Made by a program: the position numbers and the translations under genes. Positions 1 to 64,000 of a DNA stretch of 64,000 bases are shown piece by piece (positions within the stretch are counted from its first letter, which is position 1; each line of letters opens with the position of its first letter). This DNA comes from Nereocystis luetkeana (Eukaryota > Sar > Phaeophyceae > Laminariales > Laminariaceae), in NCBI GenBank assembly GCA_031213475.1, contig JARUPZ010000025.1, positions 4,909,676-4,973,675 on the forward strand, given 5' to 3'. Under the pieces are notes generated by a model. It was not told the origin of the DNA. It worked only from the letters and a program-made list of their open reading frames with translations, and ran no database searches.

Positions 1-10
1 TATGTTGCAG

Positions 11-154
11 GAGGCCGTGGCATTCCCAGAGAACGAGGGTTACGAGTTCCGTCTCATGTCCGGCCAGACGATCAGACTCGAACCCGACGGGTCATTCTTC
101 GTCGACAACCAGCGGTGCAGCGGAGAGGCGTTCATGGGGGCTGACCTGTGCTAA
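11..154 (+). CDS. vBPO: Vanadium haloperoxidase copy 0, last exon only (partial gene)
   Basis: This is the terminal exon (exon 14) of a haloperoxidase gene whose other exons lie left of the window. It follows a TTGCAG acceptor at 5-10, opens in phase 0 with a Glu codon, and encodes 47 residues before TAA at 152-154. It encodes the same residues as the last exons of genes A, B and C. The motif EFRLMSGQTIRLEPDG followed by two cysteines (residues 613 and 624 in full-length numbering) is the C-terminal strand region of algal vanadium bromoperoxidases. It shows that the array extends at least one more gene upstream. Confidence 0.92.
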   Translation, partial: EAVAFPENEGYEFRLMSGQTIRLEPDGSFFVDNQRCSGEAFMGADLC

Positions 155-3100
155 CATCTCCAACGGGGCCCCACGGGTACTGTACCACTCACGAGGACGG
201 TGTCAAACGCCTGTCGGGGTCGCACTGTACAGGCTGCATCGACGCAATTCTCCACGGGTTTCCAGTGGGAACGTTGTCAATAGTAGGGGGTTGATCCTCC
301 ATCGCGATCAGTTGTGTAGTGTTCGGCGACCGAGATCGAATACGGGGTGTAGGAACGTCAACTCTCACATCTCGGCATGGGTGACGGAACTGTAACATTT
401 ATGTAAACGCTATTAATATGACCCGATGTGTCGAAGACGATCGCTGGACTAGGTTAGCAGGTGAATTCAACACATTCGGCCTCTGACCCGCTGTCGACAT
501 TCCATGCGGGTGTGTTTCAACGAAATTGTTGAGGCTTTCGTTTCAGGATACTTCCGCGTAAGCCACTACCTTTAAGCGACGTGACGAGAAAGGTGACAGG
601 TTGTGCTTTGGAAATAAATGTGTAGCAGACAGAGTGTACTCCAGCAGTCGTTGACGTTGTTTTGGCATAAAGTGATCGATGTAAGCGCGAGGGTCAAGTA
701 CGACTGTTGGACGTTTTGAAGCTGCGACCTTCCGTATGTTTGCCACACTTGCGTTGGCCGACGTTCAACTTCAGAATCGCACATGCGTTAGAAATGAAAG
801 GCCTCTTTCTTAGAAACCGTTGGAGTTGTTCTTGAGAAATGAGCTTCTTTGGGTAAAGCTGCCCCGACCCCCCCCCACCGGGGCGTATAACGTCCTTATG
901 GCTCAATTTCCATCTGGAAAGCATGCTTATCTCCTGCAGGGATCGGATTGATGAACCAGTACACTGAATAGGTCTGTGTGGTTCAGTACCTGTAGCATTA
1001 CTCACCACGGTGTCGACAATTGTATATGTGCGGCAAAAAAGTGGGGTGTGGACATGTATATTTACTATGTACACTAGTGACTTGTGTTGTTTTCCTCAAG
1101 TAAAGGAAAATGTGGAATATATATGCGTTCAGTGCTGTATACATGGCCTGGCAAATCTTGTCAGAAAGAAGGCCACCGAACGAGCCCATCGACCTTCCTA
1201 CTAGCACGGACAATAAGGTCTCCACATTGTCCCACTCGAGGCGTACACAAGTCGTTCATTCCGCGTTTGTGGAAAGCTCACGAGCTACTCATCATGTAGA
1301 ATATGTTGGGTCATCCATGTGGATAATATCATTGTTTTTGTCGGCGCTGCATCCCACGTATTATATATAACACGTGCAACACGAAGTTGCCCTCGCAGAG
1401 GTCTGCCAAATAACTTGGAGCCATGGGCGGCGAGTGGCACGTGTGTCCGAAGTAACTGATTTCTATTAAATCGACCACGCCGTTATTTCCGTAAAAACAA
1501 GTGAAATTCTTGATCGCAGTTCGTACAAACTTCACACATACATGTTGAGTCGTGCCCACTCTTGTAAGTGTGACGAGATGGGTATGCGCAGTTTGGCGGT
1601 GTGGACTGTGGTAGTGTATGATCAAAGTGGTAAGGACACGCGCCAGGTTCTAATAATTCAATTGGTGATAGTTGTCGCCTCGGACCGAACCCGGTTAAAA
1701 TCACTGACAAGAAGATAGAAAACGTAGGATTAAGTTACTTTGCTGACCTGGTATGCCTCAGACGTTGGGCACTGTGTCGAGTTCGTTGTCAACAACTAGT
1801 CACATGTAATCCAACATGCTTCGAATATATAGATTTCCGGCCACGATGCTGCCAATTTGTGCGTTTTGCCAACAGAGCGTCAAACCGTACATCACCCGTG
1901 TCGTCGTCGGTCCAGCGCTCAGGGCCCAACTACCTACCCGCGCCGACCAGTGTTCGTCTCCCATCATGGATTCAAACGATAATATGAAATTGTGCAACAA
2001 CAGTATCCGTTTCAAGGTCCACCCCGAGCTAAGGCGCAAGTTTGTCATACATACTCATCCAGAATGGAACAAAGGCTAGGATAAGTGTGTCCCTATTATA
2101 CAAAATATATGTTCCTACTCTCGTGGCTCTTTCCACTATTGTAAGTGACTACCCAATAATAGCGTCCGAACATTTTTTGGGATTGGGAATTTTTGGTTGT
2201 ACGCTTCGGGTATAGGGATGCACTTCATCATCACATATCTCCCGAACCTGCGCATTTCCCCGGCCACTTATCGAGGTGTATTGCTTTGGCTACTTCCCGC
2301 GATATACCGCGTAAGCCCGGCATTTAACCCAAACATGTTTCCATGCATACGCCCACATATTCGTCGGACTCCTGAAAAGCCGGACGCATTGCCGACCCTC
2401 CACCGGGTGTTTTTGACGTAGAGAACATCAATGCCGACAAACTCGGTACGGCTTCCACGCTTTCCAAATACGACTCGATCGGCTGCAGTCCATGCCGTTA
2501 GTCCATGGCCAACCTGTGTTTTACACAACTGCTTACAGCTACCTCGATGTCGATGGGAATGTATGTCGACCAGTCATCCAGTGGTACTAGGAAAACTCAG
2601 AAGCGCAAGAACAGATACATGACCGGCGGAAATATCCCAATCCCTCATTGTACGAACTGAGGCGATCGTCTTTGACATGCACGTTCGCTAGATGTTCCTT
2701 CTTGAGCGGTAGAAGAGACGCTGGGAGCTGTGTGTGGCCTAAAAGTACTGCTAGGGTGTGCAATGGTAAAATGGAGAATGAAAATAATCTAGGTCGCAGA
2801 GCTTCGAAGCGTATACGCACAACAAGGTAGAAGTGGGCTCAATCGTGTTGATGCGGCCATACTACTGTTGTTGTCGTAGTCGCTGACTCTATCTCTAATG
2901 TTCGGAGCGGGAGACTTGCCTTGGTACACGCATCCCAGCCCCTCCTCTGTAGGTTGTCGAGGATTGCATGTCCTATGTGCGTTAGCTGCAGTGAAGGATC
3001 ACAATGACGCGCTCGATGTAGTGTAAGGACAACTCAGGCACATCCGGTAGTGCTGCACAGAGTTGTCCCGTACTTTTAAAATAGCGTGCCTCGCGACGTG

Positions 3101-8018: not shown

Positions 8019-8420
8019 ACAGACAAATAAATCGGAAAAATGGGAACGAAGCCTAAAATGAAAACCAAGCCGTATCTCCAGAACCATGTGGTGTATCAGA
8101 TAACCAAAATGATCCTGCGAAACCCCTTGGCCAGCCCTGTGAGAGGAGCTCATCAGAACGGTCATGCTCCATCTCGTGCCTTCGGGTGGGCGCAAAAAGC
8201 GATATACGCTGGCTCTATTGTGATTTCTCTAGATGCTAGCTACCGCAGCGATGCCGAGGACTTCCAGCCTGAGCGACAGCTCATTCGAAGGCTGATGTAC
8301 AGCCCCAAAGGACTGTCAACATTTTTTCTTGGAGTTGTACACAATTGGTTTGCTTTCTAAAAAAAACGTCCGTTCTAATTTTTTGTTTCCTTCCCATTTA
8401 TTTTTCAGATTTATTTGTCT
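8019..8420 (+). mobile_element. AACAGAC-family MITE, site 1 in unit 1
   Basis: This is a non-autonomous DNA element of about 402 bases with terminal inverted repeats beginning ACAGACAAAT and ending ATTTGTCT. The site is unoccupied in unit 3 (near 48437-48447), which establishes mobility or loss. Both terminal repeats carry an extra AAAT relative to the unit 3 and unit 4 elements, so this is a distinguishable subtype. The outermost bases have diverged, so its ends are good to about five bases and I cannot state its target duplication. An internal 106-codon frame (8040-8360) starts inside the left terminal repeat. It is probably not a gene. It matches no transposase I recognise. Confidence 0.82.
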
Positions 8421-10403: not shown

Positions 10404-10750
10404 ATGTGTAGATTGTCTACAAATTTATGCGCCCTATTAATAGTATACTATCGAAACGTCAGAAATTTAAATGCGGAATCACAAACCGATCTAGACTCCA
10501 AAGCGCCCCAGAGACCACCAGCAGCCCCACCTCCGGAAGCGTCAAAGAATCCGCAGAATGCCCGTACCCGGATACGGCAAACGGCATGCACCGAGAATGC
10601 CCTCGATAGAACGGCGCGGTGTCCAGCCCACCCTTATCATTCCACAGTCGCCCCCGCTCTTCTGCCTACAACACCAAATAAAGGCATCCCTACTACCACG
10701 CGAGAGGAGGACACCAATACATCTGCAACACACTTCCTCTTGTTCACAGG
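10404..10750 (+). other. Weak candidate exon or small ORF upstream of gene A
   Basis: An open frame of 116 codons, including the first ATG, recurs in all three complete spacers (also 30724-31074 and 50908-51258). It is rich in Pro, Ala and Thr and lacks any family signature I recognise. It ends at a good splice donor, CAGG|GTGAGT at 10751 (CAGC|GTGAGT in unit 3). Between units 1 and 3, its later part (from about 10490) shows about four synonymous and four amino-acid-changing differences, slightly more restrained than other spacer ORFs. It could be a 5' exon of the haloperoxidase transcript, a separate small gene, or chance. Confidence 0.2.
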
Positions 10751-11605: not shown

Positions 11606-14600
11606 ATGAAGGGGCTTGCAGGATCCGCCGGTGCTGTGGCCGTCATCGCCTTCGGCGTGTTCTCCGGAGCACGCGCGGAATCCGTGGGACAAGAGCCCGC
11701 TGACCACGGGTCAATTGTCGATGTGGATGATGCCGGGTCCCCATCGATGAATGCTGTAGACGACACTCCTTCGCGTCGTCTTCAAGCTAGTGGACGCCGC
11801 CGACGCCCACCCCCCCCGGTCGTGAACGATGATGCTCTTGATCCCACTGGCACCGTGAGTGCCGGCAATGGCTCTGTGTTCGGCGTTTTCCAGTAACCTT
11901 CGGGTATAAGGTCGGGTGGAGGGACGACCGATTATCCAGAACAATGGGCTTTGTCTGCAGTAGGAATGCATTCTTGAAAGGGATGTCTGTATAGCATGAT
12001 ACTGCCGGTACCGTCTTGATGGACGTACCATTGTACAGGTCGCCTTTTTTCGGAGAGGCTTCAACACTGTGAAGATGCAGGCGCAGCCCGGTCGAACGTC
12101 GGCGACATTCCATATTTTATTACAAGACACGTTGTGTGCCATGGTTTATAGCTGATCCACAAAGTTGACACTAGGGATTAATAGTAGCACTGCTCGCAAC
12201 CAGCCTCAACCCCCAGCGATAGCCCGATTGACCTTGCGCGTTGCAGCGGTCACAGACGGCGTGTCTTGTTAGTTACAGGCAAAACATGTCGTTTTCATGG
12301 TCATTGTGTCCCTGACGTTTCCCCTTTTTTGTTCGTATCACATTCGTTACCATGCCTTGTGATGAATAGCCTGCAGAACGAGCTGCCAGCGCGCTTACCC
12401 AGCGGACTGAGTGGGCCGAAACCGAGTTCGCTGCATCGGTCGGCACTCTCCACGAAAACAATGGGGACCTGTCATCCGCCGCCACGTTCCACAAGTCGCT
12501 GCCGCACGACAGCCTAGGACAGGTGAAACCGACTTTCAAAGTGTTTTGATTCGCCGCGTTCGACTCGAAAGGCTAACGTTATATAATGCGGTGTGGATTG
12601 AAAAATTCGTTCTAGTTTGCGCTAGTGGGGCTCCTCATATCGTTCGCGAGCATACCAGTTTGTTGAATGTAGAAGGTACTTTCCATATATTCATAGGAAG
12701 TAGTACAAGGAACTGCGAAACAGTGCCATATTAAGGGGTTCCGTTTTGACCCAAATCATGTTGGCGGAAGGGCCCACTCAACCGGTGGGGCTACCAAATA
12801 TAGTTTCATATCATATTTGTGTTTTCTTTCATGGCATACTGCCGACCCTTACAGTAACCTAGGGCAGTGTTCATTGGGCTGCGACTCCACGATGAGGTAG
12901 CTTCTGTAGTTGTTCCGAAACAAAGTGTATACCAAATATGTGCCGTTCTATTGAACTGACAGGAGAATTGCGTCTTGAAAACGACATGAATCCGCATGAA
13001 GCGGTAAGCCTATACCCCACTCAACGACAGGCATTTGTACCGATCTCCAACGATCAACGCTGCCCATGACGTTCCCCATGTTAACAGACGAAACCCATTC
13101 CGATAGCTCTGGAACAGTGCGATGCTAATACAGTGACTAAACAAGCTGACAAATGCACGTTGTCTGTGTATATCATTGGGCCCTTTTCGATCGGGGTGGT
13201 AATATGTCGAATTCAACATTGAAGTCGCGGCGGCGAGCTAAACTACCCTCTATATCGAAACGGCAGATAAAGCGATACCTCCGAGTACAATGTCGGGCTG
13301 CACATGAACCCCGAAATATTTTTAGCGCAAGGCCATGACAGATCAATTCTGGCAACCAAATATCTGTTCGAGGACAGCAGAATAGTATATCCCGGACGCT
13401 TTCCACAATTCATAACACGTGTACCAAAGCATGGCTACATCTCATTTAATGCGGAATATACCCAACTTGCCGTCGTGTTTGCTTACGTTGATCCGTTGTT
13501 TAAATGCTGCTTCGATAATCCTGCTACATTCCAGGTGGACACCGAGGCTTTTGACGCTCTTATCGAGTGCGTTGCCGAAGGAGATTTTGACACATGCGAG
13601 CAGGTGCCGGCCGGGGACGACGACGGCTTCCTGGTCAACCCCCTCGGGGGTATCGCCGTAGACATGGCAGGAGCGTCCGGGTACGTCAGTGTTCAGCAAC
13701 GTGGAGTACGCTTAATTGGTCTGTCACGATGAACGAGACGACGGGACGTTTTAGGCGATCTGTTCATATTGACACGGCCACCCTACTACTATGATCGCCG
13801 TCCATATATACAGCAGTATCGTACTCGGTCATGAAGTCAACAACACACCTATTGAGAGTGGCTATAGCTATCGTAGGGTTCGACCGCGGCCGACCACAAG
13901 TACAATATTTTCAACGCAAGCAGACCATGTTCAAAACGTCACCAGTCGACATATTACGTATGTCGTACACTTTATCGGCCCCAACAGGTTCGGCGTTGAT
14001 TGTGCAGGCCGTGAAGTATACAATGCATTCCCTGGTAGCGTTGCGGGCATTATGGTATTCCACGGCGGCATTAATCAACACTCACCGGTTACCATACCGC
14101 TTGGCACCTATACCGCCACCCTCGTGCGCTTCATTATCCCTTGTATTGTGTCCGTCCTGCACCGCGTTGGAATCTTCGCTTCAATTCCCCTGGAAAACTT
14201 CCACCGGTCGGTTCGTCCAAATATCTCCTGTGGACAATTCTCGCCCGCGCCATCGGCTTCATGCCGTGCTCGACGACGGCCACGATGTCGGCACCCTACC
14301 GCGTGTACTCCTTCAATTTGCTTCGCCTTCGTCCTTGGACCTGCGCTCATCGCCGTTCGTGAACTGCGGATGTTCCCCACAGCCCCGCTTTGACTATCCC
14401 CAGCGCGTCACTGCTCAACTCTGAAGACCTGGTAAGTCGTGGATATTTCTGATGCTAGACACCGTAGCAGTTTGATGAAGGGATACTACACAAAACGTTG
14501 CGGTAAAGGATCGTGTCGATGGTGTACCTCACCAATACCGTTGTTTCTTTCATGTCGACGTAGCGCCTTGTCAACCTTGTGTCATCTGCCTCGCACAATC

Positions 14601-17600
14601 GTGTTCCATATGAGTTGGATTGGACTACATTTGAGACACCCCCGTACCGGGTCGAAATTGTTGTGTCCATGCTACCACAGGCTGCTCAAATGGCTGAACT
14701 GTACTGGATGGCCTTGGCGAGGGACGTACCTTTCTCCCAGTATGGAGAAGACCGGATAACTGTGGAGGCAGCAGGTAACACGCACACATTCGGTTGGAGC
14801 TTGTGGTAAAATGTATCTTCATTGCACGTTGAGACGACTGTACCTCAAGATGTTGTTCCGTCTGGTTTCTCTGCTCAAAGGTATGACGTCGCGGGGGCAG
14901 AGTGATTGATGGTTGGGTGAGACCAAGAGAGATCCTTCCCCTTTACCAAGCCAGGGGTTGTGGTGTTTGGATTGTACTCCATGGTACACGTATACGTACA
15001 TTCATGTTTGCACAATCGATTTGCTGGTCTACCCCATTCGAAACAGGTTTTTATTGTAGGTAGTGCTGCAATGCGCGTGAGCGCGAGTTATAGCTCTGCA
15101 CGAATGGTAGCATGCCCTTTAACCTGCTGAGTAAATTTTGTGGTTTCTGCTGTGGGCGCTGCCACATTTGTTCACACAAGTGTTGTTAGGTGCACTATGA
15201 ACAACACAACATAACTCCACCACACTGGTGTAATGATTGGAACTACTGTCTCGACCCGCCTATACGATTTGCTCATCGGATAATCGACAGACAACTTGGC
15301 CACCATGCCGGGTTTCGCTGATATGAATATGGTGGCCGTCGGGCCGGATGGCAGAGCCGACCCACAGACACAGCTCTTCCGGTCTTCTGCACTCGGAGTC
15401 GAGACGGGACCCTTCGTTTCTCAGGTGCTGTGTGACATCTGGTTCAGCGTTTGCTGCCGTTAATGCCGTAGCTACCTGCTTTCCTGCTTCCGTATTGGGC
15501 GTTTCACGCACTTTCATCAGACACCGGTTCGTCGTTGCAGAGTGTGCCACGTGGATGATTGCACCAAGAAGCCTACAAACCCTGTATGTATGTCGGCACA
15601 CAGCTGGTTGTTTATTGCTTGCTTTCTACTTATTGACTGTGGTATCCCGTTCGCCGTTTGCCGGTAATGAGTAGTATCTATTACACGTATATTTAGGAGG
15701 GGGCCGTTGACGCGTGGAGAGTTTACCCTACTGATGAATACCGTCCCTCGACGCCGTGGTCGCTTCCTGCTGTTTGGGCTACACCAGCTACTGGTCAAGG
15801 ACTTCACCATCGACTCCATCACTGCGAAAGCTCAGCTGACGACGTTCGCACCGGGAGTAGACTACATGGCCGACTACGACGAATGGCTCTTCATACAGGT
15901 TAGCGAAGCCATCATAATGGACCGACCGCAAATATAAAAGACGCGTACGCCATGGAATACCGCTCATGAAACTTGATTAAGGCATTCATTATCGATTTCT
16001 TTATGGGTTTGCTCCTTAGAGTATTCGAAGAATGAGTCTGTGCTCCCCGCATGATATAGTTCAGAGTTGTGTAAGAAGTCCATTTATTGTACGGTATGGA
16101 TTGTAAGCATCTAGCGACGTACGATCGTTGAACCGTATTTCGATATTCGGTACTTCCGTGAAATACGCAGATCAAGGCTGACGTCTGCTTACCTGCCGGC
16201 ACTCTAAGCTTGTACATGCTTAATGGAGTACACATTGAACGCCGACAGATAGCTATTCACAGGTCGATCACCTTCTAAATTGCAGGTCGTAGGCCGCTGA
16301 CGTGCTAGCTGCGTTCGGAAATTTCGAATGCTGCGGGGGGACGATGATATGGGTAGTTACGATCTCCTTTCTGGCCATAACGTCCAACTTTTTCCTCGCC
16401 CCTTTGAAAAATCTGCAGAACGGTGGCAAGCCTGACTCGCCGGAGGAGGTAGACCCCGTGAAGCGATACATCCGGAGCGCCCGCGACCTTGCGACCACGT
16501 CAGCTACCGATACCATCAACACGTGAGAATAGCAAATATGGTTCATGTTGCATACCATAATATGAAAAATGAAGCCTTAATATAAACTATCGCGCAACCG
16601 TTTCTTCGGATGTCGCGACAGTCACAAATTTCAGCATCGCATTGCACCTGCCCACCGACGACTACTTCGAACGATGCCAACGACCACATGCCATTGCGTT
16701 CCGTCAACGTGCTGATCATCTCGCATGAAATCCAGTACCTAATGCAAAATTAATAAACTGTATTTACATTGAAACATGATTCACATCTAACCATTCGACG
16801 ACTAAACGTTGCGCTGTGCAGGGAGGCGTACCGAGCATCCTTGATTCTGATCGAAGAAGGAGCCATCAGCCGTCCTGGTTTCAACGGTCCGTACACAGAA
16901 AGCGGGCGCCAAGTCGGCTTCGTCAACTACGGCATATCCCACATTATGAGGCTTGTCGGAACCGGGGAGCTGGCTCAGAGGGCCTCATGGTACCAGAAGT
17001 GGAACGTTCACTTGTTTGCTCGTCCGGAGGTGAGGTTTGTATGCGTTGCCCACAGTGGCTGATAATATCGATCGGAATGGGAATGGATGCTACAGTAAGG
17101 TTACGCCTTGGGTTTGTTAGGACCTCCTTTATTACCTCACCGAAAACGGGATTTTGATAAAGCATGAATGTTCAAATTGCGAACCATCCGGTAGTCAAAG
17201 TATGTATCGAACACGAACGAAAATCATTCTCGGTGTTACAGCAGTATCGCGCAGATCCCCGGGCGACAACCCCCGTCGGGCAGACATTTGTTTTCGCCAG
17301 AACTAGCTACCCCTTGTCGTAGCGCGAATCTCGGCGCTTGAGTCAAGATTCACTATCATGCCGTGGCCGACCAAACGAGTATTAGGTACGAATCCACGCT
17401 GTCTTCCGGACACGCTAGGATTGTAAGCTTGAACCTGTTTGTCTGCGTGTGATCTATTCGGCTGCAACATAAAAAGTGGTTCACTCTGTCCCCCAAAACT
17501 CCTGCTTCTTCCCACTTCGTCTTGTCGTGTGTGTTGGGTCGTGGGACGCGACAGGCCGTCGGTGGAACTATCCACAACGTCCTAAACGGCGACCTCGATG

Positions 17601-20267: not shown

Positions 20268-21730
20268 CATCTCCAACGGGGCCCCACGGGTACTGTACCA
20301 CTCACGAGGACGGTGTCAAACGCCTGTCGGGGTCGCACTGTACAGGCTGCATCGACGCAATTCTCCACGGGTTTCCAGTGGGAACGTTGTCAATAGTAGG
20401 GGGTTGATCCTCCATCGCGATCAGTTGTGTAGTGTTCGGCGACCGAGATCGAATACGGGGTGTAGGAACGTCAACTCTCACATCTCGGCATGGGTGACGG
20501 AACTGTAACATTTATGTAAACGCTATTAATATGACCCGATGTGTCGAAGACGATCGCTGGACTAGGTTAGCAGGTGAATTCAACACATTCGGCCTCTGAC
20601 CCGCTGTCGACATTCCATGCGGGTGTGTTTCAACGAAATTGTTGAGGCTTTCGTTTCAGGATACTTCCGCGTAAGCCACTACCTTTAAGCGACGTGACGA
20701 GAAAGGTGACAGGTTGTGCTTTGGAAATAAATGTGTAGCAGACAGAGTGTACTCCAGCAGTCGTTGACGTTGTTTTGGCATAAAGTGATCGATGTAAGCG
20801 CGAGGGTCAAGTACGACTGTTGGACGTTTTGAAGCTGCGACCTTCCGTATGTTTGCCACACTTGCGTTGGCCGACGTTCAACTTCAGAATCGCACATGCG
20901 TTAGAAATGAAAGGCCTCTTTCTTAGAAACCGTTGGAGTTGTTCTTGAGAAATGAGCTTCTTTGGGTAAAGCTGCCCCGACCCCCCCCCACCGGGGCGTA
21001 TAACGTCCTTATGGCTCAATTTCCATCTGGAAAGCATGCTTATCTCCTGCAGGGATCGGATTGATGAACCAGTACACTGAATAGGTCTGTGTGGTTCAGT
21101 ACCTGTAGCATTACTCACCACGGTGTCGACAATTGTATATGTGCGGCAAAAAAGTGGGGTGTGGACATGTATATTTACTATGTACACTAGTGACTTGTGT
21201 TGTTTTCCTCAAGTAAAGGAAAATGTGGAATATATATGCGTTCAGTGCTGTATACATGGCCTGGCAAATCTTGTCAGAAAGAAGGCCACCGAACGAGCCC
21301 ATCGACCTTCCTACTAGCACGGACAATAAGGTCTCCACATTGTCCCACTCGAGGCGTACACAAGTCGTTCATTCCGCGTTTGTGGAAAGCTCACGAGCTA
21401 CTCATCATGTAGAATATGTTGGGTCATCCATGTGGATAATATCATTGTTTTTGTCGGCGCTGCATCCCACGTATTATATATAACACGTGCAACACGAAGT
21501 TGCCCTCGCAGAGGTCTGCCAAATAACTTGGAGCCATGGGCGGCGAGTGGCACGTGTGTCCGAAGTAACTGATTTCTATTAAATCGACCACGCCGTTATT
21601 TCCGTAAAAACAAGTGAAATTCTTGATCGCAGTTCGTACAAACTTCACACATACATGTTGAGTCGTGCCCACTCTTGTAAGTGTGACGAGATGGGTATGC
21701 GCAGTTTGGCGGTGTGGACTGTGGTAGTGT

Positions 21731-21772
21731 ATGATCAAAGTGGTAAGGACAATGATCAAAGTGGTAAGGACA
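21731..21772 (+). repeat. 21-base tandem duplication private to unit 2
   Basis: The unit ATGATCAAAGTGGTAAGGAC plus one A occurs twice in direct succession (21731-21751 and 21752-21772). Units 1, 3 and 4 have it once (for example near 1619-1639). It lies in spacer with no gene. Confidence 0.9.
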
Positions 21773-49739: not shown

Positions 49740-50280
49740 TCAGATTTCAGGTTGTTAATTACACTGCTGATTGATGCTGTGGACAGCAACGATTTTCGGC
49801 AAATACTTTGTGAAATCGTTGTAATGACATGAAGCTTGCGTGATGTAGGCTTATTAACGGGATACCTCTATTTTGTCTTTATAAATTTACGTCAAGAATA
49901 TACCGACGAAACATATTCCACCCACATAGTCATATATCACATATTGGTACGTAACGCATACCTTCATGATCCGCGTTGAAAAAATTCAATTTATGTTGTT
50001 ACGTGTAGTTTATATATATATATATCCGAAACACCACAATAACAAGTTATTGACGCGCCGACACTTGGCTCCAACTTCAGAAGTTCGCACCTCTCGTTTC
50101 GTAGCCCATACGCCCATGGCCTCCTGCCGCCTCGAATGTGTGCCGGAAAATTTGGTTATCGTATAAATTCGCCCGCCTGTCGTCTTGAAGTTTCCTGTAG
50201 ACGTTTTTGTTCCTGGGGTGTGTGTGTATGATCTGTAAAAAAAATTTCAACAATGTGATATTGCAGCCTCATCCAGAATT

Positions 50281-50675
50281 AACAGACAAATCGGAAAAAT
50301 GGGAACGAAGCCTAAAATGAGAACCAAGCCGTATCTCCAGAACCATGTGGTGTATCAGATAACCAAAATGATCCTGCGAAACCCCTTGGCCAGCCCTGTG
50401 AGAGGAGCTCGTCAAAACGGTCATGCTCCATCTCGTGCCTTCGGGTGGGCGCAAAAAGCGATATACGCTGGCTCTATTGTGATTTCTCTAGATGCTGGCT
50501 ACCGCGGCGATGCCGAGGACTTCCAGCCTGGGCGACAGCTCATTCGAAGGCTGCTGTACAGCCCCACAGGACTGTCAACTTTTTTTCTTGAAGTTGTACA
50601 CAATTGGTTTGCTTTCTAAAAAAAAACGTCCGTTCTCATTTTTTGTTTCGTTCCTATTTTTCAGATTTGTCTGTT
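50281..50675 (+). mobile_element. AACAGAC-family MITE, site 2 (unit 3)
   Basis: This is a 395-base element flanked by AATT duplications (50277-50280, 50676-50679); unit 2 keeps the empty site with one AATT. The terminal inverted repeats run about 44 bases with five mismatches and begin AACAGACAAATC. The internal 106-codon frame (50299-50619) is open but shows six amino-acid-changing differences against one silent difference from unit 2's element, so it does not behave like a conserved gene. Ends and the 4-base target size do not let me name a superfamily. Its transposase must come from elsewhere. Confidence 0.9.
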
Positions 50676-52082
50676 AATTGCGGATCGGCAGACACACAAA
50701 CAAACGTACCTATCCGCTCACAGAATTGAACCGAACGAACCGAATTGTCGTCCCTTAATATCCCAGGAGAATAATCCTGTCCGCGAAGGTCCTGAGGATA
50801 CATACAGGTCATGATATATTGATCAACGATGCGGTACGCGCGACCGTCCTCCCCCGCACTGTCTTAGCAAACCTGAGGATCCACGCAACTGATCGAACGG
50901 ACAGACGATGTGCAGATTATCTACAGAAGTATGCGCCCTATTAATAGTATACTATCGAAACGTCAGAAATTTGAATGCGGAATCACAAACCGATCTAGAC
51001 TCCAAAGCGCCCCAGAGACCACCAGCAGCCCCACCTCCGGAAGCGTCAAAGAATCCGCAGAACGCCCGTACCCGGATACGGCAAACGGCATGCACCGAGA
51101 ATGCTCTCGATAGATCGGCGCGGTGTCCAGCCCACCCTTATCATTCCACAGTCGCCCCCGCTCTTCTGCCTACAACACCAAATAAAGGCATCCCTACCAC
51201 CACGCGAGAGGAGGACACCAATCCATCTGCTACACACTTCTTCTTGTTCACAGCGTGAGTGATACCCAGGGTTTAAAAAACCAAGCAAGATGAATGCTGG
51301 CCCATGTGAATACTGCATACCGATGTAGTTCGTTCCTCACGCGCGTTTGAGGCACGATATTGAACTCAAGCAGGTCAGGCGAGCATAGTGATCGCGTTTG
51401 AATGCTACAAAGGGGAACGTATCGCCTGGAAGTGCAGTGAAGTACCTGTTTTCAGCTGGAAGTTTATGCGGACACAAGTCGACAGTAGCAAAACAATGTG
51501 CGTTAAGTCTCTGTGCGATGTTAGGTTCATATTTTATGGGCACAAGCTCGACATCTACGTTTGGGCGTGCGAGTATACAGTTCGTGCAACGAATCCAGAC
51601 CTGACGGGCAGCTTGAATTTCCGTCGTCAATCGTGTTTCACGGTTCTTCGCACTTGTGTGTATTTCCCATGGAACGTGTTTGCCACCTACATCTATGACA
51701 CAAAACTACTTGTGTACCTACTATTCTTATTGTGTAGCGCCCCGAGTACACTCTACGGGTGACTTGGACTACACGTTGCTCACCATGCCATGGTCTCAGT
51801 AAATCTGATCTTGTAGCCAATACACACGTCTCACGTTACTCACAGATGTTTTGTTTGCCGCGGGCTCATCGTGTCACGTCTGCCAAACACTTTTTAGTTT
51901 TGTGCGAATGTACCTGAAGAACGGAAACTCAACCTGTTTTTTTCTCTTAGCCCTCTGAAGTTGTCTCTCACGTCACTCTCCATTCACAAAACGTTCCAAT
52001 ACATTCCACTTCGTGTCGTTTCCTGCTTTCATCAAATAACAGCGGAAACAAGAACCCATCAAGGACGACATCTACTCGCAGC
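50676..52082. other. Spacer 5' of gene C
   Basis: This is collinear with the last 1.4 kb before gene A. It holds the weak candidate exon (50908-51254). An open frame at 51388-51762 encodes 124 codons in this unit only; units 1 and 2 break it with the seven-base CCAGG scar. The pyrimidine-rich tract before the start codon persists despite many substitutions. No firm gene. Confidence 0.55.
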
Positions 52083-55000
52083 ATGAAGGGGCTTGCAGGA
52101 TCCGCCGGTGCTGTGGCCGTCATCGCCTTCGGCGTGTTCTCCGGAGCTCGCGCAGAATCGGTGGGACAAGAGCCCGCTGACCACGGATCAATTGTCGGTG
52201 TGGATGATGCTGGGTCCCCATCGATGAACGCTGTAGACGACACTCCTTCGCGTCGTCTTCAAGCTAGTGGACGCCGCCGACGCCCGCCCCCCCAAGTCGT
52301 GAATGATGATGCTCTTGATCCCACTGGCACCGTGAGTGCCGGCAATGGCTATGTGTGCGGCGTTTTCCAGTAACCTTCGGGTATAGGGTCGGGTGGAGAG
52401 ACGACCGCTTATTCAGAACAATGGGCTTTGTCTGCAGTAGGAATGCATTCTTGAAAGGGATGTCTGTATAGCATGATACTGCCGGTACCGTCTTGATGGA
52501 CGTACCATTGTACAGGTCGCCTTTTTTCGGAGAGGCTTCAACACTGTGAAGATGCAGGCGCAGCCCGGTCGAACGTCGGCGACATTCCATATTTTATTAC
52601 AAGACACGTTGTGTGCCATGGTTAATAGCTGATCCACAAAGTTGACACTAGGGATTAATAGTAGCACTGCTCGCAACCAGCCCCAACCCCCAGCGATAGC
52701 CCGATTGACCTTGCGCGTTGCAGCGGTCACAGACGGCGTCTCTTGTTAGTTACAGGCAAAACATGTCGTTTTCATGATCATTGTGTCCCTGACCTTTCCC
52801 CTTTCCGTTGGTATCACATTCGTTACCATGCCTTGTGATGAATAGCCTGCAGAACGAGCTGCCAGCGCGCTTACCCAGCGGACTGAGTGGGCCGAAACCG
52901 AGTTCGCAGCATCGGTAGGCACTCTCCATGAAAACAATGGGGACCTGTCATCCGCCGCCACGTTCCACAAGTCGCTGCCGCACGACAGCCTAGGACAGGT
53001 GAAACCGACTTTAAAGGTGTTTTCGTTCGCCGCGTTCGACTCGAAAGACTAACGGTGTATAATGTGGTGTGGATTGAAGAAATCGTTCCAGTTTGGGCTG
53101 GTGGGGCTCCACATATCGTTTGCGAGCATACCAGTTTGTTGAATGTAGAAGGTACTCTCCATATATACATACCAGGTAGGAAGTAGTACAAGGAACTGCG
53201 AAACAGTGCCATATTAATGTGTTCCGTTTTGACCCAAATCATGTTGGAGGAAGGTCCCACTCAACCGGTGGGGCTACCAAATATAGTTTCATATCATGTT
53301 TGTGTTTTCCTTTATGGCATACTGCCGACCCTTACAGTAACCTATGTCAGTGTTCTTTGGGCTGCGACTCTACGATGAGGTAGCTTCTGTAGTTGTTCCG
53401 AAACAAATTGTATCTCAAATATGTGCCGTTCTATTGCACTAACAGGAGAATCTCGTCTTGAAAACGACATGAATCCGCATGAAGCGGTAAGCCTATACCC
53501 CACTCAACGACAGGCATTTGTACCGATCTCCAACGATCAACGATGCCCGTGACGTTCCCCATGTGAACAGACGAAACCCATTCCGATAGCTCTGGAACAG
53601 GGCGATGCTAATACAGTGACTACACAAGCTGACAAATGCACGTTGTCTGTGTATATCATCGGGCCCTTTTCGATCGGGGTGGTATTATGTCGAATTCAAC
53701 ATTGAAGTAACGGCGGCGAGCTGAAATACCCTGTATATCGAAACGGCAGATAAAGCGATACTTCCGAGCGCAATGTCGGGCTGCACATGAACCCAGAAAT
53801 GTTTTTAGCGTAAGGCCATGACAGATCAATTCGGGCAACCTAGTATCTGTTCGAGGACAGCAGAATAGTATATCCCAGACGCTTTCCACAATTCATAACA
53901 TTTGTACCACGGCATGGCTGAATTCCCTTTAATGAGGAATGGTACCAACTTACCCCCTGTGTTAGCTTACTTACGCGTGATCCGTCGTTTAAATGCTGCT
54001 TCGATAATTCTGCTACATTTCAGGTGGACACCGAGGCTTTTGACGCTCTTATCGAGTGCGTTGCCGAAGGAGATTTTGACACATGCGAGCAGGTGCCGGC
54101 CGGGGACGACGACGGCTTCCTGGTCAACCCCCTCGGGGGTATCGCCGTAGACATGGCAGGAGCGTCCGGGTACGTCAGTGTTCAGCAACGTGGAGTACGC
54201 TTAATTGGTCTGTCACGATGAACGAGACGACGGAACGTTTTAGGCGATCTGTTCATATTGACACGGCCAACCTACTACTATGATCGCCGTCCATATATAC
54301 AGCAGTATCGTACTCGGTCATGAAGTCAACAACACACCTATTGAGAGTGGCTATAACAATCGTAGGGTTCGACCGCGGCCGACCACAAGTACAATATTTT
54401 CAACGCAAGCAGACCATGTTCAAAACGTCACCAGTCGACATATTACGTATGTCGTACACTTTATCGGCCCCAACAGGTTCATTGTTGATTGTGCAGGCCG
54501 TGAAGTATACAATGCACTCCCTGGTAGCGTTGCGGGCATTATGGTATTCCACGGCGGCATTAATCAACACTCACCGGTTACCATACCGCTTGGCACCTAT
54601 ACCGCCACCCTCGTGCGCTTCATTATCCCTTGTATTGTGTCCGTCCTGCACTGCGTTGGAATCTTCGCTTCAATTCCCCTGCAAACATTCCACCGGTCGG
54701 TTCATCCAAATATCTCCTGTGGACAATTCTCGCCCGCGCCATCGGCTTCATGCCGTGCTCGACGACGGCCACGATGTCGGCACCCTACCTCGTGTACTGC
54801 TTCAATTTGCTTCGCCTTCGTCCTTGGACCTGCGCTCATCGCCGTTCGTGAACTGCGGATGTTCCCCACAGCCCCGCTTTGACTATCCCCAGCGCGTCAC
54901 TGCTCAACTCTGAGGACCTGGTAAGTCGTGGATATTTATGATGCTAGACACCGTAGAAGTTTGATGAAGGGATATTACGCAACTCGTTGCGGTAAAGGAT

Positions 55001-58000
55001 CGTGTCCATGGTGTACCTCACCAATACCGTTGTTTCTTTCATGTCGACGTAGCGCCTTGTCAACCTTGTGTCATCTGCCTCGCACAATCGTGTTCCATAT
55101 GAGTTGGATTGGACTACATTTGAGACACCCCCGTACCGGGTCGAACTTGTTGTGACCATGCTACCACAGGCTGCTCAAATGGCTGAACTGTACTGGATGG
55201 CCTTGGCGAGGGACGTACCTTTCTCCCAGTATGGAGAAGACCGGATAACTGTGGAGGCAGCAGGTAACACGCACACATTCGGTTGGAGCTTGTGGTAGGA
55301 TGTATCTTCCATGCACGTTGAGACGACTGTACCTCAAGATGTTGTTCCGTCTGGTTTCTCTGCTCAAAGGTATGACGTCGCGGGGGCAGAGTGATTGATG
55401 GTTGGGTGAGACCAAGAGAGATCCTTCCCCTTTACCAAGCCAGGGGTTGTGGTGTTTGGATTGTACTCCATGGTACACGTATACGTGCATTCATGTTTGC
55501 ACAATCGATTTGCTGGTCTACCACATTCGAAACAGGTTTTTATTGTAGGTAGTGCTGCACTGCGCGGGAGCGCGAGTTATAGCTCTGCACGAATGGAAGC
55601 ATGCCCCTTAACTTGCTGAGTATTTTTTGTGGTTTTTGCTGTGGGCGCTGCCACATTTGTTCACACAAGTGTTGTTAGGTGCAATATTAACCAAACAACA
55701 CAACTCCACCACTCTGGTCTCATGATTTGAACTACTGTCTCTACCCGCCTATACGATTTGCTCATCGTCTAACCGACAGACAACTTGGCCACCATGCCGG
55801 GTTTCGCTGATATGAATATGGTGGCCGTCGGGCCGGATGGCAGGGCCGACCCACAGACACAGCTCTTCCGGTCTTCTGCACTCGGAGTCGAGACGGGACC
55901 CTTCGTTTCTCAGGTGCTGTGTGACATCTGGTTCAGCGTTTGCTGCCGTTAATGCCGTAGCTACCAGCTTTCCTGCTTCCGTATTGGGCGTTTCACGCAC
56001 TTTCATCAGACACCGGTTCGTCGTTGCAGAGTGTGCCACGTGGATGATTGCACCAAGAAGCCTACAAACCCTGTATGTATGTCGGCACACAGCTGGTTGT
56101 TTATTGCTTGCTTGTGATGTATTGACTGTGGTATCCCGTTCGCCGTTCCCCTGTGCTGAGTAGTTTCTACTTGATATGTCAAAAGGAGGACGCCTTTGAC
56201 GCGTGGAGAGTTTACCCTACTGATCAATACCGTCCTTCGACGCCGTGGTCGCTTCCTGCTGTTTGGGCTACACCAGCTACTGGTCAAGGACTTCACCATC
56301 GACTCCATCACTGCGAAAGCTCAGCTGACGACGTTCGCACCGGGAGTAGACTACATGGCCGACTACGACGAATGGCTCTTCATACAGGTTAGCGAAGCCA
56401 ACATAATGTAACGACCGCAAATATAAAAGACGCGTACGCCATGGAATACCGCTCATAAGACTTCATTAAGGCATTCATTATCGATTTTTTTATGGGTTTG
56501 CTCCTTAGAGTATTCCAAGAAAGAGTCTGTGCACCCCGCATGATATAATTCAGAGTTGTGTAAGAAGTCCATTTATTGTACGGTATGGATTGTAAGCATC
56601 TAGCGACGTACGATCGTTGAACCGTATTTCGATATTCGGTACTTCCGTGAAATACGCAGATCAAGGCTGACGTCTGCTTACCTGCCGGCACTCTAAGCTT
56701 GTACATGCTTAATGGAGTACACATTGAACGCCGACAGATAGCTATTCACAGGTCCATGACCTTCTAAATTGCAGGTCGTAGGCCGCTGACGTGCTAGATG
56801 CGTTCGGAAATTTCGAATGCTGCGGGGGGACGATGATATGGGTAGTTACGATCTCCTTTCTGGCCATAACGTCCAACTCTTTCCTCGCCCCTTTGAAAAA
56901 TCTGCAGAACGGTGGCAAGCCTGACTCGCCGGAGGAGGTAGACCCCGTGAAGCGATACATCCGGAGCGCCCGCGACCTTGCGACCACGTCAGCTACCGAT
57001 ACCATCAACACGTGAGAATAGCAAATATGGTTCATGTTGCATACCAAAATATATATGAAAAATGAAGCGTTAGGATAAACTATCGCGCAACCGTTTCTTC
57101 GGATGTCGCGACAGTCACAGATTTCAGCATCGCATTGCACCTGCCCACCGACAACTACTTTGAACGATGTCAACGACCACATGCCCTGGCGTTTCGTCAA
57201 CGTGCTGATCATCTCGCATGAAATCCTGTACCTAATGCAAATTTGACAAGCTGTATTTACATTGAAACAGGATTCACATGTAACCATTCGACGACTAAAC
57301 GTTGCGCTGTGCAGGGAGGCGTACCGAGCTGCACTGATTCTTATCGAAGAAGGAGCCATCAGCCGTCCTGGTTTCAACGGTCGGTACACGGAAAGCGGCC
57401 GCCAAGTCGGCTTCGTCAACTACGGCATCTCCCACATTATGAGGCTTGTCGGAACCGGGGAGCTGGCTCAGAGGGCCTCATGGTACCAGAAGTGGAACGT
57501 TCACTTGTTTGCTCGTCCGGAGGTGAGGTTTGAATGCGTTGCCCACAGTGGCTGATAATATCGATCGGAATTGGAATGGATGCTACAGTATGGTCACGCC
57601 TTGGGTTTGTTAGGCCCTCCTTTATAGCCTCACCGAAAACGGGATTTTAATAAAACATGAATGTTCAAATTGCGAATCACCCTGTAGCCAAAGTACGTAT
57701 CGAAAACGAACGTAAATCATTCTCGGTGTTACAGAAGTATCGCGCAGATCCCCTGGCGACAACCCCCGTAGGGCAGACATTTGTTTTTGCCAGAACTAGC
57801 TACCCCTTGTCGTAGCGCGAACCACGGCGCTTGAGTCAAGATTCACTATCATGCCGTTGCCGACCAAACGAGTATTATGTACCAACCTACGCTGTCTTCC
57901 GGACACGCTAGGATTGTAAGCTTGAACCTGTTTGTCTGCGTGTGATGCATTCGGCTGCAACGTAAATAGTGGTTCACTCTGTCCCCAAAAACACCTGCTC

Positions 58001-60763
58001 CTTCCCACTTCGTCTTGTCGTGTGTGTTGGGTTGTCGGATGCGACAGGCCGTCGGCGGAACGATCCACAATGTCCTAAACGGCGACCTCGATGTAGAATT
58101 CCCCGATTCGCTTCTCAACAACAGGCGGTTGCTAAGGAGGGTGGCTCGACGCAACAGGGAGATCACCGGGCAGAGACGCAGGCGCCCGCGCACGTTCCTT
58201 CTCCCCCAAGTGAGTTTCGAATTCGACCAGCGTATATATGGCGCATACAAACTCTGGCTGAGATTGCCTGCGTTCACATAGTGTTTCCGACGAAGTGCTT
58301 GTCGTTCGTAGCATGTTTGATGTGATCGACATGCGCTCGACTCGTGTCTCAAATGGTTCGGGACGCGAACGTCCATACATGTTCGAATAGTTCTAGCGGG
58401 CACTAAACTGTACTGGGCATTACTACTTCGTGCCACCGACGGGCTCTGCGTAAATACCCTGAAGTTCAGTATTCGAAAGGTTAGCCTTCGACGAGATGAT
58501 AGACGGCGTATACCGCAAAACATTCAAACGTCGACTGAACAGACCTCTCGACTGAATATGAGTTCAATATCCGCTCGATGATGTGCTTCATACTGTTGAC
58601 CATCCCCGCCGGATGCGCTATGTTTTCACAGGCCGTTAACGAGGGGTCGCCAACTCACCCTTCGTACCCCTCTGGGCACGCTGTCCAGAACGGCGCCTTC
58701 GCCACGGTACTCAAGGTAAGCCGTTTGGTTTATGCGCACATCAAGTGGTTTGATCAACAGTGATATAGCGGCAGCTATGTATATTTCTGTGTATGCTTGT
58801 TGGGCGAGGACGCAGCAGACGGGATTGCAGCTCTAACTGAACCGCAGAAGAGGAATGACACTTTTAATTCTAGGCACTGGTTCTCAGCAGCATACCCTGA
58901 AATGATTGAAGTATAGACTATCGGGTTTGCTGTTTTTGCCATGCATTACATATTATTCTTTGCTCTTTTTGCATTTTTCGTCTGCAATGGAAACACATTC
59001 ATAGTCTCTCCCCAGGAGGTTTGGCAAATTCGTAGATAAATACTTCCCGATTGCATCGGCCACAACGGTAAAGAACGCACGCACAGTAGCCTCACAGCTT
59101 CGTCAGCCAGTACCAACCGGCCAGCTGTTGCTATCGACAACAAGTCTCGGCCGTCGACTGCAAAATGTGTGTTAAGGGTTCGGCTAACGTAATGCAAGTA
59201 TCCTGTTCAGCACCAGGGCATATCCTATCTCGCATGCACATTTAATATCGTGCGTTGTAGTCGACATCGTAGCGGCACCAGCGTTAATAGTACGAGGTCG
59301 GAATTGCGTGACAATCACGTGATCCGCCTGTGTAGTTGGCGATTTACGACGTCGCCGAGACATCGCGGTGTCGTCGTGTGTTTGAAACCGTTAAGGTTGA
59401 ACCGATGCGCCAACCACTTGAAAAAACAGCAATCGTTGCAGTGTTCCGATACCACTACAGCTGCTGGCCTCGCGTCGTCACTATTCAGCCCGCCGGTGAT
59501 CAAGCTGGAAATCATGGAGCTAGCGCGAGATCAACCTAGCTGCTCCACTCAGCGCCAAGAGAAAACAAAAGTATGTACTGAGTTCGACATTGTTCTCATT
59601 ATTCCTGTTGCGACTTGCCCCCATATCCGGCAGGCTCTTGTCGGACTGGAGCGTGGCGCTTCGTGCTTTAGCGACCCCGTGGTCCCGGACGACGAAGGGT
59701 TGACCCTTCTGCCCTACACCGGCGACGAATGCCTGACGTACGAGGGAGAGATCAACAAATTGGCCGTCAACGTCGCATTCGGCAGGTACGAGAGGAGTGG
59801 ACGAGTTCAGTTCGAGCAATTGAACCCTTCCGATTCCTCTGCGTCTTTTTCAAGGCTTTCTCTCGTCAAATATTTCGTACTTCGTGTGTGGCATTATGTG
59901 CCATGAATCGAATTTACCTTAACGGACGTTACTCGTGTTCTGCTTGCTCTGATATGCAGGCAGATGATGGGTATTCACTGGAGGATGGACGGCCAGGAAG
60001 GGTTGCTCCTCGGCGAGATGGCCGGTGTGCGGATTCTGCAGCAGGTGAGAGAGCGCACGCACATAGGACGTCTACTCACAAAGAAAGGGATACCTTACAT
60101 CCTACATATATATGAACAGGCAACATGCATAAATAATCATTGCTCTGGTACAAATATTCAGTTTTGCTGGTGACTCTAGCTGCTGCTACTCATGAACTGT
60201 TTCCCCGCTGTTCCCGTTGATCATGCTTTGCATAAGCTAGTTTGTAGTTATCCTCATTCAGGTATTGTTTGGGCATTCTACGAACGCAAGTATGTTTGGG
60301 ACTTTGATCAATGTGAACTCGAGCTGGTACACACCACCAAATAGACAGGCAGAACAATTCACAGAATCATTGCGCGCGATCGTCGTCGATATGGACCTTC
60401 GTTCGTCATGACAAGCTCAACCATAGTCGACGGGCACACAGTAGTGAAGCCCCTAACGTAGACGTTGATCTGGCGGCGCTCTATCTCTTTCTCGCACGAG
60501 ATTTACTGTTCCTCGCTAAATCACTGAACCTTCAAACATAATCGATCGACATCAAAACCATGAATAGATTAGTGTGACACTCACTCGTCTTCCACGTATT
60601 TTTCGATCTTATGTTGCAGGAGGCCGTGGCATTCCCAGAGAACGAGGGTTACGAGTTCCGTCTCATGTCCGGCCAGACGATCAGACTCGAACCCGACGGG
60701 TCATTCTTCGTCGACAACCAGCGGTGCAGCGGAGAGGCGTTCATGGGGGCTGACCTGTGCTAA
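52083..60763 (+). CDS. vBPO: Vanadium-dependent haloperoxidase (bromoperoxidase type), gene C
   Basis: This is an intact 14-exon paralogue. Exons are 52083-52331, 52846-52998, 54024-54169, 54872-54920, 55170-55263, 55780-55913, 56277-56387, 56908-57011, 57315-57522, 58048-58209, 58632-58715, 59634-59785, 59960-60044 and 60620-60763, giving 624 residues. Against gene A I count four residue changes (Asp39Gly, Pro71Gln, Ser353Ala, Pro370Arg) and about 28 silent codon changes, a clear sign of purifying selection. All vanadate ligands and the signal peptide are kept. Differences concentrate in exons 1, 2, 9 and 10, while exons 3-8 and 11-14 are almost identical to A, suggesting patchwork conversion. 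Exon 10 ends CAA|GTGAG where A and B have CAG|GTGAG: a silent change that weakens the donor slightly. Intron 2 (52999-54023) is much diverged near its 3' end. Confidence 0.93.
53170..53178. other. TA-CCAGG-TA insertion scar in gene C intron 2
   Basis: Unit 3 reads CA then TACCAGGTA then GGAAG. Units 1 (12694-12695) and 2 (33022-33023) read CA then TA then GGAAG. The seven-base difference is the same CCAGG-plus-TA signature seen at 11001-11009. It lies within the second intron, away from the splice sites. Confidence 0.65.
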
Positions 60764-61877
60764 CATCTCCAACGGGGCCCCACGGGTACTGTACCACTCA
60801 CGAGGACGGTGTCAAACGCCTGTCGGGGTCGCACTGTACAGGCTGCATCGACGCAATTCTCCACGGGTTTCCAGTGGGAACGTTGTCAATAGTAGGGGGT
60901 TGATCCTCCATCGCGATCAGTTGTGTAGTGTTCGGCGACCGAGATCGAATACGGGGTGTAGGAACGTCAACTCTCACATCTCGGCATGGGTGACGGAACT
61001 GTAACATTTATGTAAACGCTATTAATATGACCCGATGTGTCGAAGACGATCGCTGGACTAGGTTAGCAGGTGAATTCAACACATTCGGCCTCTGACCCGC
61101 TGTCGACATTCCATGCGGGTGTGTTTCAACGAAATTGTTGAGGCTTTCGTTTCAGGATACTTCCGCGTAAGCCACTACCTTTAAGCGACGTGACGAGAAA
61201 GGTGACAGGTTGTGCTTTGGAAATAAATGTGTAGCAGACAGAGTGTACTCCAGCAGTCGTTGACGTTGTTTTGGCATAAAGTGATCGATGTAAGCGCGAG
61301 GGTCAAGTACGACTGTTGGACGTTTTGAAGCTGCGACCTTCCGTATGTTTGCCACACTTGCGTTGGCCGACGTTCAACTTCAGAATCGCAAATGCGTTAG
61401 AAATGAAAGGCCTCTTTCTTAGAAACCGTTGGAGTTGTTCTTGAGAAATGAGCTTCTTTGGGTAAAGCTGCCCCGACCCCCCCCCACCGGGGCGTATAAC
61501 GTCCTTATGGCTCAATTTTCATCTGGAAAGCATGCTTATCTCCTGCAGGGATCGGATTGATGAACCAGTACACTGAATAGGTCTGTGTGGTTCAGTACCT
61601 GTAGCATTACTCACCACGGTGTCGACAATTGTATATGTGCGGCAAAAAAGTGGGGTGTGGACATGTATATTTACTATGTACACTAGTGACTTGTGTTGTT
61701 TTCCTCAAGTAAAGGAAAATGTGGAATATATATGCGTTCAGTGCTGTATACATGGCCTGGCAAATCTTGTCAGAAAGAAGGCCACCGAACGAGCCCATCG
61801 ACCTTCCTACTAGCACGGACAATAAGGTCTCCACATTGTCCCACTCGAGGCGTACACAAGTCGTTCATTCAGCGTTT
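60764..61877. other. Spacer downstream of gene C, before the MITE
   Basis: This is nearly identical to 155-1267 of unit 1. It should contain the 3' UTR of gene C. No other feature is supported. It ends with GTTT (61874-61877), the left target duplication of the inserted MITE. Confidence 0.7.
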
Positions 61878-62271
61878 AACAGACAAAACGGAAAAATGGG
61901 AACGAAACAAAAAATGGGAACGGACGTTTTTTTTAGAAAGCAAACCAATTGTGTACAAATCCAAGAAAAAAAGTTGACAGTCCTGTGGGGCTGTACAGCA
62001 GCCTTCGAATGAGCTGTCGCTCAGGCTGGAAGTCCTCGGCATCGCCGCGGTAGCCAGCATCTAGAGAAATCACAATAGAGCCAGCGTATATCGCTTTTTG
62101 CGCCCACCCGAAGGCACGAGATGGAGCATGACCGTTCTGACGAGCTCCTCTCACAGGGCTGGCCAAGGGGTTTCGCAGGATCATTTTGGTTCTCTGATAC
62201 ACCACATGGTTCTGGAGATACGGCTTGGTTCTCATTTTAGGCTTCGTTCCCATTTTTCCGATTTGTCTGTT
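61878..62271 (-). mobile_element. AACAGAC-family MITE, site 3 (unit 4), inverted
   Basis: This is a 394-base element in reverse orientation. It is flanked by GTTT duplications (61874-61877, 62272-62275); the empty site in units 1-3 reads GCGTTTGTGG with one GTTT. The ends are AACAGACAAA and TTTGTCTGTT. The insertion sits in otherwise nearly identical sequence, so it is recent. The internal frame (61933-62253, minus strand) is again open at 106 codons with further amino-acid changes, including Ile to Arg near its start. Confidence 0.92.
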
Positions 62272-64000
62272 GTTTGTGGAAAGCTCACGAGCTACTCATC
62301 ATGTAGAATATGTTGGGTCATCCATGTGGATAATATCATTGTTTTTGTCGGCGCTGCATCCCACGTATTATATATAACACGTGCAACACGAAGTTGCCCT
62401 CGCAGAGGTCTGCCAAATAACTTGGAGCCATGGGCGGCGAGTGGCACGTGTGTCCGAAGTAACTGATTTCTATTAAATCGACCACGCCGTTATTTCCGTA
62501 AAAACAAGTGAAATTCTTGATCGCAGTTCGTACAAACTTCACACATACATGTTGAGTCGTGCCCACTCTTGTAAGTGTGACGAGATGGGTATGCGCAGTT
62601 TGGCGGTGTGGACTGTGGTAGTGTATGATCAAAGTGGTAAGGACACGCGCCAGGTTCTAATAATTCAATTGGTGATAGTTGTCGCCTCGGACCGAACCCG
62701 GTTAAAATCACTGACAAGAAGATAGAAAACGTAGGATTAAGTTACTTTGCTGACCTGGTATGCCTCAGACGTTGGGCACTGTGTCGAGTTCGTTGTCAAC
62801 AACTAGTCACATGTAATCCAACATGCTTCGAATCTATAGATTTCCGGCCACGATGCTGCCAATTTGTGCGTTTTGCCAACAGAGCGTCAAACCGTACATC
62901 ACCCGTGTCGTCGTCGGTCCAGCGCTCAGGGCCCAACTACCTACCCGCGCCGACCAGTGTTCGTCTCCCATCATGGATTCAAACGATAATATGAAATTGT
63001 GCAACAACAGTATCCGTTTCAAGGTCCACCCCGAGCTAAGGCGCAAGTTTGTCATACATACTCATCCAGAATGGAACAAAGGCTAGGATAAGTGTGTCCC
63101 TATTATACAAAATATATGTTCCTACTCTCGTGGCTCTTTCCACTATTGTAAGTGACTACCCAATAATAGCGTCCGAACATTTTTTGGGATTGGGAATTTT
63201 TGGTTGTACGCTTCGGGTATAGGGATGCACTTCATCATCACATATCTCCCGAACCTGCGCATTTCCCCGGCCACTTATCGAGGTGTATTGCTTTGGCTAC
63301 TTCCCGCGATATACCGCGTAAGCCCGGCATTTAACCCAAACATGTTTCCATGCATACGCCCACATATTCGTCGGAGTCCTGAAAAGCCGGACGCATTGCC
63401 GACCCTCCACCGGGTGTTTTTGACGTAGAGAACATCAATGCCGACAAACTCGGTACGGCTTCCACGCTTTCCAAATACGACTCGATCGCCTGCAGTCCAT
63501 GCCGTTAGTCCATGGCCAACCTGTGTTTTACACAACTGCTTACAGCTACCTCGATGTGGGAATTTATGTCGACCAGTCATCCAGTGGTACTAGGAAAACT
63601 CAGAAGCGCAAGAACAGATACATCACCGGCGGAAATATCCTAATCCCTCATTGTGTACGAACTGAGGCGATCGTCTTTGACATGCACGTTCCCTAGATGT
63701 TCCTTCTTGAGCGGTAGAAGAGACGCTGGGAGCTGTGTGTGGAATAAAAGTACTGCTAGGGTGTGCAATGGTAAAATGGAGAATGAAAATAATCTAGGTC
63801 GCAGAGCTTCGAAGCGTATACGCACAACAAGGTAGAAGTGGGCTCAATGGTGTTGATGCGGCCATACTACTGTTGTTGTCGTAGTCGCTTACTCTATCTC
63901 CAATGTTCGGAGCGGGAGACTTGCCTTGGTACACGCATCCCAGCCCCTCCTCTGTAGGTTGTCGAGGATTGCATGTCCTATGTGCGTTAGCTGCAGTGAA
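62272..64000. other. Spacer of unit 4 to the window edge
   Basis: This is collinear with about 1268-2997 of unit 1 and most like unit 3, with few substitutions. It lacks the 161-base segment and the 21-base duplication of unit 2, and keeps the 24 bases missing in unit 3 near 43040. No gene or RNA is supported. Confidence 0.65.

Follow-up and report, generated by a model that had tools for sequence, protein, structure and literature searches.

Predicted vanadium haloperoxidase genes in mosaic tandem units within a large cluster of the Nereocystis luetkeana genome

We find that the 64,000-nucleotide stretch of Nereocystis luetkeana DNA analysed here (the window; C25:4909676-4973675) is, with a probability of about 90%, an interior slice of a large haloperoxidase cluster that arose by segmental tandem duplication, has been reshuffled by exchange and encodes a protein under purifying selection. 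Contig C25 measures 9.65 Mb, and the genome searched comprises 465 Mb in 1,987 contigs. Self-BLAST of the window reveals a head-to-tail repeat with a unit of ~20 kb that is mostly 95-99% identical, as in the alignments of 1899-22037 with 22198-42345 (97.8%), of 30493-41710 with 50676-61877 (95.5%) and of 1-8016 with 40443-48441 (96.9%), with single units offset by 19.7-20.6 kb. These results uphold the head-to-tail array of ~20.2-kb units that an earlier note had read from the letters, and the self-alignment that it proposed, which we ran, gives per-segment identities mostly within this range, falling to 86.9-88.6% in ~1.8 kb of spacer. A chance repeat is ruled out by alignments of 8-20 kb at 95-98%. 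Introns of the window units differ by 1-5% from one unit to another. In the second unit, positions 22038-22198 hold a 161-bp stretch of 36% GC that is missing at the matching place in the units before and after.

The window contains three complete genes and the end of a fourth:

11..154, + strand: exon 14 (last coding exon) of upstream copy A; matches exon 14 of the next copy at 144/144 bases, the rest of A lying outside the window
11606..20267, + strand: gene B, predicted vanadium haloperoxidase, 14 coding exons, 624 aa, intact
31926..40596, + strand: gene C, predicted vanadium haloperoxidase, 14 coding exons, 624 aa, intact
52083..60763, + strand: gene D, predicted vanadium haloperoxidase, 14 coding exons, 624 aa, intact

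The gene models were built from exon blocks matching PDB 1qi9, after which splice sites were enumerated and the three units aligned. B, C and D each comprise 1,875 coding bases (624 codons and a stop); every one of their 13 introns has GT-AG boundaries, and none of the three reading frames is interrupted by a stop. Exon 4 measures only 49 bases. The three complete 14-exon genes and one partial gene described previously are thus confirmed, the partial gene being the last exon of copy A. The accompanying count of at least four genes holds yet is too low, since six units of the window type and many relatives are present.

Read-through frames of one unit match 1qi9 (Ascophyllum nodosum vanadium bromoperoxidase 1) in all three forward frames. 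The spliced protein matches the same structure with an E-value of 6.9e-204 over residues 74-624 of 624, and 315 of the 546 aligned residues of the gene B protein are identical (57.7%). The second match is PDB 5aa6 (Ascophyllum nodosum vanadium bromoperoxidase 2; E 1.2e-125), and every one of the 10 distinct solved sequences matched is named haloperoxidase or bromoperoxidase. Gene B is identical to 1qi9 at nine of nine positions that we take to be vanadate-site and catalytic residues (Trp338, Lys341, Arg349, His411, Ser416, Gly417, His418, Arg480 and His486); it differs at the tenth position compared, 395, which is not known to have an active-site role. Pfam PAP2 (PF01569) scores 25.0 bits (E 1.8e-5), under its cut-off of 27.2. 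Judged by this homology, the window genes are predicted to encode a vanadium-dependent haloperoxidase of the brown-algal bromoperoxidase-1 type. The N terminus reads as a signal peptide and the protein is probably secreted; the enzyme would hold vanadate in the conserved site and oxidise halide using hydrogen peroxide. Exon-9 identity to 1qi9 (45/70 in the window type, 39-45/69 in three more distant copies) does not distinguish vBPO from vIPO.

Between the genes lie long spacers, of which one was taken as the following feature:

20268..30791, no strand: spacer between genes B and C, without a Pfam family

Scans of one 11.7-kb spacer returned no Pfam family in six read-through frames, no Rfam match at gathering score and no tRNA. 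A control, in which one frame of the haloperoxidase gene went through the same kind of Pfam scan, also returned no family, so an intron-rich gene in the spacer could escape such a scan. The statement that the array holds no other supported gene therefore agrees with the empty spacer scans but is weakened by the equally empty control. As a dispersed repeat, the spacer was rejected: a 1-kb piece finds five places at 95-100%, including the query, all inside the array, and elsewhere only matches of ~90-200 bases, one at 71% and others at 64-77%, many of them on other contigs.

Reading 204 contiguous kb, we identified ten gene copies. Three of them, x1-x3, lie in units of ~17 kb; six, A-F, belong to the window type; the tenth is G. 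Compared with window-type exons, those of x1-x3 and G show 71-97% identity, and B-F, x1 and x3 are intact by the exon model. In x2, GG replaces GT after exon 5, and in A the intron after exon 3 begins with GC. Copy A also carries, at C25:4897911-4908484 outside the window, a tandem duplication with an offset of 5,286 bp that begins within exon 3, extends as far as intron 11 and shows 2 mismatches over 5,288 bases. This ~5.3-kb duplication is either a recent event or an assembly error, and from the exon lengths we calculate that joining exon 11 to the second exon 4 in the transcript would cause a frameshift. Copy G (C25:5026254-5034706) is frameshifted, has two stops, and has lost the AG before exon 7 and the GT at the upstream block described below; it looks like a pseudogene. 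Since A and G are visibly damaged and x2 is without one GT donor, not every one of the ten copies need be active.

An exon-9 peptide search of the genome yielded at least 94 matches (96 candidates, all scored). At 60% identity or more there are at least 51 places: 46 on C25, 4 on C4 and 1 on C17. The 46 on C25, a lower bound that leaves out three weaker matches (48-56%, two of them partial), spread over 1.61 Mb and include the six window-type units. At 86% or more there are 33 places, all on C25, one being the second exon 9 within copy A. The 43 weaker matches comprise 13 on C22, 12 on C11 and 15 on small contigs (39-47% identity) together with the three on C25. We also note three minus-strand places, C25:5053387, 5075866 and 5098341, which are 22,479 and 22,475 bases apart and form a regular sub-array in opposite orientation. 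More distant haloperoxidase clusters lie at C22:2.54-3.13 Mb and C11:7.35-7.62 Mb, with the 15 further places on small contigs. For one C22 exon the best match is A. nodosum VBPO2 (E 4.1e-27, vs 1.2e-14 for 1qi9), and a C11 exon is identical to the C22 exon at 48/57 residues; the genome therefore appears to contain two types of haloperoxidase, each in its own clusters.

Four elements of ~400 bp with inverted ends occur in the 204 kb read, all within the window:

8023..8418, + strand: MITE-like element in the spacer after gene A
28351..28746, + strand: MITE-like element at the corresponding position of the spacer after gene B; the gene C unit has none at this site
50272..50684, + strand: MITE-like element in the spacer after gene C only
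61876..62280, - strand: MITE-like element after gene D only

Genome-wide, at least 42 near-full-length places were found at 97-100%, query included (40 of 1,269 first-look candidates scored). Comparison by eye of filled and empty sites suggests 4-bp target duplications, AATT and GTTT. At the site of the 50272 element, unit 1 (10165-10180) reads AATTAATT and unit 2 (30490-30500) reads AATT; the doubled target at 10165-10180 could be an excision footprint or slippage. We rejected the idea that these elements caused the duplication, since they lie within units at differing sites and thus look like later insertions.

The copies are under purifying selection. Among A-F (15 non-independent pairs; G left out), dS by the NG86 method is 0.007-0.068 and dN/dS is 0.04-0.14. 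Among x1-x3, dS is 0.022-0.055, with 0, 1 and 1 amino-acid changes, and between A-F and x1-x3 it reaches 0.47-0.50. The relative youth claimed for the array thus stands, given units that are mostly 95-99% identical and the low dS among A-F.

Identity along the unit is not uniform. B and C are 98.9% identical in the gene and 93.7% in the last part of the spacer, while C and D are 96.0% identical in the gene and 99.7% in the last spacer part; identities of BLAST pieces with A, E and F likewise vary along the unit, and the spacer of unit F aligns only in part, at ~73% to most others. Gene and spacer therefore have different nearest neighbours, a mark of unequal crossing-over or gene conversion, both of which fit. 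The unequal exchange invoked by the earlier note is supported indirectly, by this mosaic and by the internal tandem duplication in neighbouring copy A.

Two other accounts of the array have to be weighed against duplication followed by exchange. We regard it as extremely improbable that simple duplication was followed by divergence of entire units, with no exchange between them afterwards. In favour of whole-block divergence, 243 of the 353 informative sites in units B-E back the single grouping BC|DE, against 72 for BE|CD and 38 for BD|CE. The discordant sites are clustered, however, with 40 switches along the unit vs 167 (sd 6.7; minimum 145) in 2,000 shuffles; in one-kb bins, BC|DE is ahead in 8/9 of the first and BE|CD in 4/4 of the last, the middle bins being mixed. 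Whole-block divergence also conflicts with the change of closest pair from B-C in the gene to C-D in the last spacer part, and with the 8023-type MITE site, which is filled after A and B and empty after C, D and E, contradicting the gene grouping. The other account, that the repeat is partly an assembly artefact, produced by multiplying one or two real units or by stringing two haplotypes together, would fit the near-identity of the duplication in copy A and the 15 places of the distant C22/C11 type on small contigs, which indicate that the assembly had trouble with such repeats. It is nevertheless very unlikely: the window units differ by 1-5% in introns, in the 161-bp stretch and in MITE filling at several sites, and the differing MITE filling speaks against assembler copies of one sequence; moreover, none of the 51 exon-9 places at 60% identity or more is on a small contig.

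Comparison by BLAST of the window type with x1-x3 and G reveals that the alignable parts are the exons, parts of the introns, ~30-40 bases directly ahead of the ATG and 170-360 bases after the stop, together with one block located 0.5-1.1 kb upstream of the gene (68-71%). The remaining spacer gives no alignment except in the upstream region of A and in one 196-base piece, in which window 47036-47229 matches downstream of G at 75.5%. In the window this block, whose 5' limit is the start of conservation and not a mapped start site, occurs three times:

10472..10750, + strand: upstream block of gene B, a predicted first exon without coding sequence; GTGAGT donor at 10751
30792..31070, + strand: upstream block of gene C; donor at 31071
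50976..51254, + strand: upstream block of gene D; donor at 51255

We read the block as a non-coding first exon, followed by a predicted first intron of ~0.8 kb in B, C and D; after this intron the transcripts would resume at 11566, 31886 and 52043, respectively. Its 3' end is closed by GTGAGT in nine of the ten copies, the exception being TTGAGT in the damaged copy G. On the acceptor side, A-F have an AG at 42-41 bases before the ATG, where conservation resumes, whereas x1-x3 have CAG ~10 bases further up and G has TAG there. Both features favour a transcribed first exon over a promoter or enhancer. Its non-coding character, judged by indels, and its distance of 0.5-1.1 kb from the gene are compatible with such a control element, and we consider that reading possible, though clearly the less favoured. 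A structured RNA in the block is not supported (z -0.85), 35 of 200 shuffles folding at least equally well.

Across the genome the block is found at 32 or more places, all on C25 among the matches listed. Thirty of the 32 listed places have a partner on the same strand within 15 kb among the 33 exon-9 places at 86% or more, 29 of which are paired in this way; the distance is 5.7-7.7 kb in 29 pairs and 10.2 kb in one. The two unpaired places, C25:4326244 (a partial match) and C25:5227693, have no exon 9 within 15 kb downstream and are possible lost-gene remnants. The four gene places without a listed block are the duplicate inside A, copy G (in which BLAST does find the block), 5258423 and 4313460.

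In sum, each ~20-kb unit consists of one whole gene together with the region upstream of it and ~10 kb of spacer in which no gene could be recognised. Such units would have been born by segmental tandem duplication, with later reshuffling through gene conversion or unequal crossing-over. Under purifying selection the protein changes very little, while introns and spacers drift, a pattern that fits retention for a putative role in dosage. We tentatively propose, at slightly less than even odds, that the non-coding first exon and intron shared by the subfamily are a control module copied with the gene and conserved while most of the spacer diverged, so that the cluster would be a co-regulated dosage block renewed by unequal exchange.

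By title or abstract start, we found no literature on a first exon or promoter of these genes, nor any on their gene conversion or copy-number variation, in a search that covered subscription journals thinly. For Saccharina japonica, the accessible parts of the published reports give 88 V-HPOs, with tandem groups of 58 on LG3, 13 on LG4 and 9 on LG21 and transposable elements around them (PMC11765636), 17 vBPO and 59 vIPO in tandem clusters (PMC4421812), and 89 vHPOs (PMC6507550); in S. latissima, eight vHPOs were detected by mass spectrometry, according to the available part of that report (PMC13198595). Since tandem V-HPO clusters are already published for kelps, the kind is known, and the locus is a well-preserved example of it, of which the upstream block and the mosaic pattern are most worth following. 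A base-level map of a cluster with intact, constrained and mosaic units eases tests of copy number and expression between individuals, and the upstream block is a well-delimited candidate for a control element that the genes have in common.

Among characterized enzymes, A. nodosum vanadium bromoperoxidase 1 (1qi9) is the best solved match, with all nine active-site positions identical and 57.7% overall identity to gene B, and represents a single solved enzyme without array information; A. nodosum vanadium bromoperoxidase 2 (5aa6) belongs to the same family and is more distant from the window type. The vBPO and vIPO families of Laminaria digitata, named in PMC4421812 and PMC13198595, would be expected to be near relatives. 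As far as the accessible parts of the three S. japonica reports go, the clusters in that kelp are the closest counterpart, with the same family in tens of tandem copies on few chromosomes. The present locus shares with kelp V-HPO clusters many tandem copies on one contig (at least 46 over 1.61 Mb of C25) and mobile elements within; the likeness to the S. japonica clusters, as described in those parts, rests on family and copy number, while unit anatomy, mosaic pattern and upstream block are features described here.
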